A stretch of 48,934 nt of DNA from Candidatus Gastranaerophilales bacterium (lineage in GTDB: Bacteria > Cyanobacteriota > Vampirovibrionia > Gastranaerophilales > Gastranaerophilaceae), in assembly GCA_944322855.1 (NCBI GenBank), contig CALUQG010000014.1, positions 1 to 48,934 of the forward strand, in the 5' to 3' direction. Made by a program: the position numbers and the translations under genes. Positions 38,021 through 40,644 of the stretch are shown here, piece by piece (position 1 is the stretch's first letter; every line of letters begins with the position of its first letter). The notes beneath the pieces were generated by a model. The model ran no database searches. It had not been told where the DNA came from and saw nothing but the letters and a program-made list of their open reading frames with translations.

Positions 38021-38034
38021 AATTTAACATTCAA

Positions 38035-38062
38035 AAAGAGGGCGTTGCCCCTCTTTAAATTT
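38035..38062. terminator. Bidirectional terminator
   Basis: aaagaggg (38035-38042) pairs with ccctcttt (38049-38056), with loop cgttgc and T-rich flanks. It serves the acyltransferase and the convergent 52-aa gene. Confidence 0.8.
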
Positions 38063-38085: not shown

Positions 38086-38244
38086 TTAAACCAGACCCAG
38101 CATTTTTTTGTACCAGCTGAATGTTTCCAGTTCCAAACCGTTAAATGTTGTTTTTAAACATTGACGTTTCAGATAAGAATCAAACTCATCGTTGAATTTT
38201 GACTTAATTTCTTTAACTTCCTTTGATGCAGTGTTAGTAGACAT
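38086..38244 (-). CDS. 52-residue protein of unknown function
   Basis: A small soluble protein starting MSTNTASKEVKEIKSKFNDE, charged and helical, ending TFSWYKKMLGLV. I place the start at 38244 because the minus strand has a near-perfect Shine-Dalgarno AAAGGAGG eight bases before it; an upstream in-frame ATG at 38289 lacks one. It is single-gene, bounded by the terminator at 38035-38062. There is no domain I can name. The strong ribosome site suggests high expression. Confidence 0.7.
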   Translation of the reverse strand: MSTNTASKEVKEIKSKFNDEFDSYLKRQCLKTTFNGLELETFSWYKKMLGLV

Positions 38245-38522
38245 AGAGCCTCCTTTGATAAATTTGTAAAATATATATGAAATCAACATTGACCTTAATG
38301 AGTTAATTATATCACATATTAGGCATGTTGGCTAGAGAATTTACTATAAATGTAAAACTTGTAAACGTAAATTTTTGCTAAAATCAATAGTTTTTGAAGA
38401 AATGTATCTTTACATATTGACATAAAATGTTTGTAATATATAGCTATTTAGTATATCTTATTTCATCGCACAGTTTTTGAATAAGAATTATTATTACAAG
38501 TGTAATGTTAACATTTATTAAA

Positions 38523-39290
38523 TTATGTAAACAAAGCATTTTGGATCGGATTACGTTTTACTGCACGAGCCAGTGCTCCCGGAGGATGCATTCTGTCACC
38601 AGAGGGAAGATCTCCGTATTTGTCTTTTATTCTTTGAACAAGATTTCTTTTTTCAGGATCAGGTTCAAAAAACAGTTTTGCATATATGCTGACTCCGTCA
38701 GAAATTATTGGTTCTGTTGAATCAGAAAATATATCTCCGTATTTTCTTAGAAAAGCACGATGTGCTATTGCATTCATCCCCAGAAAGTCTAATTCTTCTT
38801 GAACAGAACTGTCACCATCATTATCTTTTGCATGTCCTGCTTCATGAAGAATAGCTTCTGCAATTGCTAATATGACAGGGAAATCATTTGTATTTCGATA
38901 TCGTTCATTAATTGTTATTATATTTCTGCCAAAATCATATTGCGCATGAATTCCTGGTTCTGTTGTTTTATCAAAAAGAATTCTTATGTTCTGTTTTTCG
39001 ATAAATTTTACAGCCTCTGCACCTGATTTATACGGAACTTTGACTCCCATATTTTTCAGGTACTTTATGTCATCAGGATCAAACTTCAAATCTTTCAGAG
39101 CAAGCATGGATGATTCCAATGTTTTGTCTTTAAGCCAGGGGAGTTTTTGGACAAAATCTATACCTGTTGTAGAAACAGGTTCTGTTTGTTCAATTGGATT
39201 TTTTGTCCATTCCTGATTTTGAACTGGTGAAGATATTTTAGAAAAAACTGTTGATATTGGCATTACCGGTGTCATTTGATATTGTCTCAC
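38523..39290 (-). CDS. HEAGH metallopeptidase-like protein next to the four-winged-helix regulator
   Basis: A 255-residue protein from the GTG at 39290, or 250 from ATG 39275. Residues 1-60 are Pro/Thr/Ser-rich. A compact domain follows with ITINERYRNT, then AEAILHEAGHAKD (H149, E150, H153) and QEELDFLGMNAIAHR, where E165 or E166 could be the third zinc ligand. This layout recalls ImmA/IrrE (M78) peptidases, although the match is only partial. A charged C-terminal part (SGDRMHPPGALARAVKRN) follows. It begins 5 bp after the four-winged-helix gene, so the two form an operon. The role is unknown; a regulator-processing or sensing role is a hypothesis. Confidence 0.75.
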   Translation of the reverse strand: MRQYQMTPVMPISTVFSKISSPVQNQEWTKNPIEQTEPVSTTGIDFVQKLPWLKDKTLESSMLALKDLKFDPDDIKYLKNMGVKVPYKSGAEAVKFIEKQNIRILFDKTTEPGIHAQYDFGRNIITINERYRNTNDFPVILAIAEAILHEAGHAKDNDGDSSVQEELDFLGMNAIAHRAFLRKYGDIFSDSTEPIISDGVSIYAKLFFEPDPEKRNLVQRIKDKYGDLPSGDRMHPPGALARAVKRNPIQNALFT

Positions 39291-39295
39291 TGTAA

Positions 39296-40522
39296 TTAGT
39301 TTTCATTATCATAAGAGATTGTGTATTGTGGGCTTACAGCCAGCCATCTGAAAGTTTCAGAACTTTCAGTTTCCGGAAGGTCTGTAACAAAAGTACCGCC
39401 GTAACGTCCTCTTGAAAAGTTTACGTAACCTAATTTAGAAAGATTTTGCAGCGCTTTTCTGATAGTATTGCTGGACACATCAAATTTTTCGGAAAGAACT
39501 TCCATTGAAGGCAATTTGTCTCCTATTTCATAGTTTTCTGCTATAAAGTTCTTGATAATATTTTCAATTTTTTGATAGCTGTAAAATGCAGCATCTTCAG
39601 CCTTTGCGAATATTGATGAAGCTAGTATTGAAACTTCGTTATCCGGCTGTAAAACATTTGAATCAGGTATTTTTGTGACCGTTGTACCGTAGCGGCCTCT
39701 TCTTGCAAGCAGAATACCTTCTTCTATCAAAGATTTCATTGCATCATGAACTGTTTTGATACTTACCTTTAATATGTCGGAAAGTTCCTGATGAGCAGGC
39801 AGTCTGTCTCCAACTTTATAGTTGTTTTTGATATATTCTTTAAGGTCTTTTTCTACTTGTTGCACAAGTGTTTTGGATGTTTCTTCCTGCGGCTTAAAAA
39901 ATTCTTTTTCAGCATTTGTAAATGACGGAATTTGTTTTAATATCCAGTTTGCATCGTTTGAACGAAATGCTCTTGCTTCTATAATCCCTTGAGAACAGAG
40001 AAAATCGAGAGCAAGTCTGGTTGTATTTGTTGAATTCCCGATTATTGAAGACATTGTCCTTGCGGAAGGAAGCGGCTGATTGATTTCAATTCCGTTATCG
40101 AGAATGTATTTTTTTATTTGTGCAATAACTTTTTCTCTTTTTGATGATGCTTTTCTGATAATAGGGTTAGAGGAGTTTGTGTCTCGTATGATAGTTCCTA
40201 TTCTTTGTTTGGATTCTAACAGTCCGGCATCTTCTACAAAGCGGATAGCATTTTGAACAGTTCCGACGCTGACTCCAAGGTAATATGCAATATCTGCTTT
40301 TTTAGGAAGAAGAGAATTGTTTTCTATTTTTCCTTTTTTTACTCCTGAAACAATCCAGTCCGTCAGCCATTTCTTTATTATTGAATCTTTTGATTCAAAA
40401 GTATTTTTAAAATTCGGAATTTCTTTTGGTAGTTCTGTTATGTTTATTCTTTTAAGTTCATTTTTTTCTAATTTTTCAAAAGAGTTTATTTTGTCTGCAG
40501 ATGAAGTTTGATTATCTGACAT
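39296..40522 (-). CDS. Regulator with four tandem GntR-type winged-helix domains
   Basis: A 408-residue protein with four winged helices at about 45-113, 127-195, 218-284 and 316-381 and no sensor domain. The third and fourth are closest to the consensus (GDRLPAHQELSDILKVS, RGRYGTTVTK; GDKLPSMEVLSEKFDVS, RGRYGGTFV). The first two are more diverged (LLPKKADIAYYLGVS; LPSARTMSSIIGNS). Usual GntR proteins have one such domain plus a ligand domain. GGAGG lies 12 bases before the ATG. A palindrome overlaps the promoter, suggesting self-control. The first 40 residues are charged and unstructured. Confidence 0.85.
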   Translation of the reverse strand: MSDNQTSSADKINSFEKLEKNELKRINITELPKEIPNFKNTFESKDSIIKKWLTDWIVSGVKKGKIENNSLLPKKADIAYYLGVSVGTVQNAIRFVEDAGLLESKQRIGTIIRDTNSSNPIIRKASSKREKVIAQIKKYILDNGIEINQPLPSARTMSSIIGNSTNTTRLALDFLCSQGIIEARAFRSNDANWILKQIPSFTNAEKEFFKPQEETSKTLVQQVEKDLKEYIKNNYKVGDRLPAHQELSDILKVSIKTVHDAMKSLIEEGILLARRGRYGTTVTKIPDSNVLQPDNEVSILASSIFAKAEDAAFYSYQKIENIIKNFIAENYEIGDKLPSMEVLSEKFDVSSNTIRKALQNLSKLGYVNFSRGRYGGTFVTDLPETESSETFRWLAVSPQYTISYDNEN

Positions 40523-40547
40523 ATTTTCTCAATGCCTCCACACTTTA

Positions 40548-40591
40548 TTATGATATAATATCATAATTATAAATAAACAACAATTATTTTT
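40548..40591 (-). promoter_or_regulatory. Promoter of the four-winged-helix gene with overlapping palindrome
   Basis: On the minus strand TTGTTG and TATTAT are 17 bp apart, a good sigma-70 match. The 19-bp perfect palindrome ttatgatat-a-atatcataa (40548-40566) covers the -10 box and the start site. This is the layout of an autorepressor operator, 25 bp before the start codon at 40522. Confidence 0.6.
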
Positions 40592-40644
40592 TTTGCTAAT
40601 AACCAGTACCGCCGGCAATAAAAATTAACAATAAAACGTATAAT

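Follow-up and report, generated by a model that had tools for sequence, protein, structure and literature searches.

What does a regulator built solely of winged helices do beside a protein that resembles a metallopeptidase, and do the two form a switch? We addressed this question in a window of 48,934 nucleotides (the whole stretch of DNA analyzed) from a Candidatus Gastranaerophilales genome (Vampirovibrionia; G000, 2.0 Mb, 98% complete). A first-pass annotation, made from the sequence, had described on the minus strand a regulator gene followed by a gene for a protein with HEAGH and a later EEL motif, and had suggested that the second protein might cleave the first. Gene order and motifs were read correctly, the second motif being QEEL.

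The regulator (39296-40522, minus strand; 408 aa) consists of four consecutive GntR-type winged helices, as had been proposed. Searched with the full-length sequence, Pfam family PF00392 gives four matching segments, and each unit also passes the curated gathering cutoff of 27 bits when cut out singly (30.8, 27.5, 45.5, and 47.8 bits). The AlphaFold2 model places the winged-helix units at residues 45-112, 126-195, 219-282, and 308-379, joined by floppy linkers; its pTM is 0.32, and the relative placement of the four units is left unpredicted. The absence of a ligand domain was likewise borne out: Pfam and NCBIfam scans detected no C-terminal effector, ligand, or oligomerization/dimerization domain, and the model holds nothing beyond winged helices and floppy ends. 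The units carry the LP...LS/A and G..GT wing signatures of the GntR superfamily (PF00392: FadR, HutC, MocR/PdxR, and YtrA types), and each scores above the family cutoff. Known GntR members, however, combine one winged helix with a ligand or aminotransferase-like domain and dimerize, whereas the only domains in this protein are its four winged helices. In the literature searched, we found no paper on multi-GntR regulators. Units D3 and D4 share 39% identity, which fits the expectation from tandem duplication. Over 25 genomes, conservation is highest in the recognition helices (0.73-0.81), intermediate in whole domains (0.62-0.71), and lowest in the linkers (0.43-0.59).

The regulator occurs in 53 of 59 relatives; almost every genome of the order, as well as some other families of the class, has it as a single-copy gene. 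Among 292 genomes drawn from the phylum, 128 carry it, all belonging to family f1, and none outside the class matched. The architecture is lineage-specific.

Footprinting across genomes revealed a conserved promoter upstream of the regulator gene (40555-40598, minus strand), with TAGCAA at 40593-40598, a -35 box TTGTTG at 40578-40583, a 17-bp spacer, and a -10 box TATTAT at 40555-40560. Its consensus, TARCAAAAA followed after about 9 bp by TTGNTGTTTWTTTA and an extended -10, is nearly invariant through the genus and family, being found in 23/23 genus genomes and 33/36 other family genomes compared with 10/432 control genes. Other families have a related form (TAGCA, 15-18 bp, TGTTTTAWTA), the second block of which is present in 19 of 27 genomes and at 1 of 432 control genes. 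Whole-genome pattern searches recovered roughly one site in each genome, in most cases at the regulator gene itself. Because a conserved promoter with about one site per genome sits at the regulator gene, autoregulation is probably the simplest reading of these sequence patterns. The family f1 element spans the -35 to the -10, so that any protein occupying it would obstruct RNA polymerase. Against this, a conserved promoter can also mean strong constitutive expression or control by another regulator, and the whole-genome pattern searches found no second target, an unexpected result for a core regulator.

The first-pass annotation had also noted a 19-bp perfect palindrome over the -10 box. This repeat is real and correctly placed, but it is 21 bp long (40547-40567; ATTATGATATAATATCATAAT; arms of 10, loop of 1). 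About 1.3 such repeats are expected by chance per window, while only 0.3% of 123-bp stretches of the same composition contain one. It is confined to the window genome and present in none of 22 congeners; as it is not conserved, we rejected it as an operator. Three other candidate motifs were also set aside. The inverted repeat TAGCAA-N8-TTGCTA, considered as a regulon motif, falls largely within genes at its other positions in the genome; an operator common to the regulator and small-gene promoters (the small gene is described below) showed weak resemblance, with most genomes within reach of at least 3% of control promoters; and an N-terminal FxG motif of Gastranaerophilales proteins was dropped after showing no N-terminal enrichment. 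The cleanest intergenic match to TAGCAA-N8-TTGCTA elsewhere is a perfect copy at G000:C4:33347-33366 (L157), between response-regulator-like and prenyltransferase-like genes.

The second gene (38523-39275, minus strand) encodes a 250-aa protein with a zincin-like HExxH motif, which we refer to as the HEAGH protein and leave unassigned to a family. It had been listed with a GTG start at 39290, but its orthologs begin at the equivalent of the ATG at 39275, with MTPISPVF-like starts in the alignment, so the GTG is probably wrong and the ATG the better choice. The gap to the regulator is accordingly 20 bp from the ATG; the 5 bp first reported holds only with the GTG. HEAGH occupies residues 144-148 and QEE residues 159-161. 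The H, E, G, and H of HExGH and the QEE are invariant in 15 orthologs and kept in distant ones too, so that the protein has both the HExxH and the conserved downstream acidic ligand of a zincin. In the AlphaFold2 model, a confident one (pLDDT 83), HEAGH lies inside one helix (132-151) and QEE inside the next (158-179), and the predicted fold is zincin-like. We infer that the protein probably binds metal and acts as a hydrolase (or oxygenase).

Structural matches to the HEAGH protein are zincins of several families, none of them decisive. The best is the ChlB HExxH domain (8s5f; Z 8.0, rmsd 4.0, 143 residues, 13% identity), although a Z of 8 falls within the range of unrelated or chance matches. 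Deuterolysin (Z 6.6) and other zincin catalytic domains (Z 5-6.6) share the general zincin arrangement but differ in the downstream motif, at 10-17% identity. By sequence, the protein has no Pfam match at E up to 10, no NCBIfam match at E up to 1, and nothing meaningful in the PDB. The ImmA/IrrE likeness first proposed stands in part. Like the ImmA/IrrE metallopeptidases (M78, PF06114, including PprI), the HEAGH protein carries HExxH on one helix and an invariant Glu on the next, and its gene adjoins that of a DNA-binding protein. M78 membership, however, is not supported: PF06114 does not match the window protein and reaches E 0.044 in only 1 of 15 orthologs, and IrrE/PprI align at Z 4.7-4.9 over only about 90 residues (88 at Z 4.9; Foldseek E 0.044). 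The neighboring gene also differs, being GntR-type rather than XRE-type and often present without a HEAGH gene. Elsewhere in G000, a distantly related TPR-repeat protein (L002:973-1962, contig C18) has the signature HEFVHGKDND..S..EE in common with the HEAGH protein and occurs in most genus genomes.

A third gene, missed in the first pass, was found by tblastn and alignment (38089-38244, minus strand). It encodes a 52-aa protein (MSTNTASKEVKEIKSKFNDEFDSYLKRQCLKTTFNGLELETFSWYKKMLGLV) and lies 3' of the HEAGH gene by 181-371 bp (aligned ends), in the same strand and order, in 23/23 genus genomes. It has a strong ribosome-binding site, a predicted promoter of its own (38306-38334, minus strand; TAGCCA, 17 bp, TATAAT with TG), the -10 of which is conserved in the genus, and a predicted intrinsic terminator after it (38029-38060, minus strand). 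Farther upstream, at about 38340-38382 on the minus strand, the promoter block TAGCAAAAATTTACSTTTACAWSTTTTACATTTATAGTAAAT, with an inverted repeat TTTAC-N7-GTAAA, is strongly conserved in the genus. The small protein occurs in 54 of 59 genomes of the order, nearly always in single copy, and its C-terminal half is hyperconserved (KTTFNGLELETFSWYKKMLGL). It has no convincing Pfam or NCBIfam match. As a near-universal protein of an animal-gut bacterial order that falls in no Pfam or NCBIfam family, it is a good target in itself.

The association of the HEAGH gene with the small gene is phylogenetically wider than its association with the regulator. The two are neighbors in the genus, in g90, g92, g32, g34, and g35, and in families f2 and f4, and in all of these beyond the genus except g90 the regulator lies elsewhere. 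This pattern is in keeping with a reading in which the HEAGH protein has the small protein as its functional partner (its substrate or its inhibitor) and the regulator is simply upstream in one clade. The best structural match points the same way, since 8s5f, an alpha-ketoglutarate HExxH enzyme from a family described in PMC12636437, carries out a peptide modification; such oxygenases would share with the HEAGH protein both this alignment and a small conserved protein encoded nearby. On the other hand, identity is 13%, the Z score is in the range noted above for unrelated matches, NCBIfam gives no match, and no other peptide-maturation gene was seen beside the HEAGH gene. Moreover, most genomes that lack HEAGH still encode the small protein; in one of these, G033, its gene sits directly behind the regulator. 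In f6, f7, g97, and g96, the small gene is unlinked to, or not seen near, HEAGH. We therefore regard this partnership as unlikely, if the least so of the alternatives.

The survey of gene order bears on the proposed pairing of regulator and HEAGH protein. The HEAGH gene is patchy, occurring in 15 of 146 genomes of the class; it is present in all 23 genus genomes, in some genera of the family, and in some other families. Regulator and HEAGH gene are adjacent in all 23 genus genomes and also in genera g97 and g90, always on the same strand, with gaps of -7 to 166 bp (aligned ends), mostly below 55. Thus, the gene order is not unique to this genome, which would have spoken against the pair. The genes flanking the block vary, and therefore the block has been kept while its surroundings changed; such adjacency in about 25 genomes argues for some functional tie in the clade, where the two genes probably share a transcript. 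In all other genera found to have both genes, the two are unlinked, on different contigs. Most genomes carry the regulator without a HEAGH gene, and across the order the HEAGH protein is dispensable to the regulator. Conversely, G040 (99% complete) has the HEAGH gene and only a short, weak match to the regulator. In three loci of family f6 (L097, L098, and L102), the HEAGH gene is preceded not by the regulator but by a small gene weakly like DUF6812. Phages, plasmids, and viral contigs gave no match for HEAGH or the regulator, and a phage or plasmid origin was rejected; a defense system was also rejected, as PADLOC matched neither the HEAGH nor the small protein, and the regulator only as generic winged helices.

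ImmA cuts ImmR, and by analogy the HEAGH protein could cut the regulator and free its promoter on a signal. Co-directional adjacency conserved in three genera, a zincin-like model with IrrE/PprI among its matches, and flexible linkers between the winged helices in the AlphaFold2 model are all consistent with such cleavage. The linkers are, however, the least conserved parts of the regulator, and the HEAGH protein lacks an M78 family match. Because the regulator is near order-wide while HEAGH is patchy and unlinked elsewhere, and because each is found alone, an obligate regulator-protease switch is unlikely, and we consider the proposed cleavage quite improbable. A mainly chromosome-organizing protein that bridges DNA and also binds its own promoter would fit four DNA-binding units per chain, a core distribution, no ligand domain, and no regulon motif in the genome pattern search, but the strong conservation of the recognition helices, together with a single, highly specific promoter element in each genome, suggests that the protein reads DNA in a sequence-specific manner, which leaves this role equally doubtful.

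Altogether, we consider it fairly likely that the locus centers on a core regulator that arose by tandem duplication and represses itself over ~45 bp, with the HExxH protein co-expressed but not an obligate partner. One GntR winged helix would have been duplicated in tandem until one polypeptide carried four DNA-reading heads and lacked a ligand pocket; the product would serve Gastranaerophilales and some sister groups as a core transcription factor. Most likely, we infer, the regulator binds its own promoter all the way from the TARCAAAAA block and the -35 through a T-rich spacer to the extended -10. In doing so it would repress its own gene, and its level would stay constant or respond to competitors for this DNA. 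Within the clade, the HExxH gene directly behind it would share this autoregulated promoter, and the small gene 3' of it would be transcribed from its own promoter up to its own terminator.

A more far-reaching reading of these sequences is that the ligand-free regulator acts as a monomer on a long asymmetric operator and forms one functional unit with the clade-specific HExxH enzyme and the hyperconserved 52-aa protein; we think this rather unlikely. Most bacterial regulators gain specificity by dimerizing on a palindrome. A core regulator that has four GntR heads per chain, lacks a ligand pocket, and has a long, conserved, non-palindromic promoter would represent a different solution to specificity.
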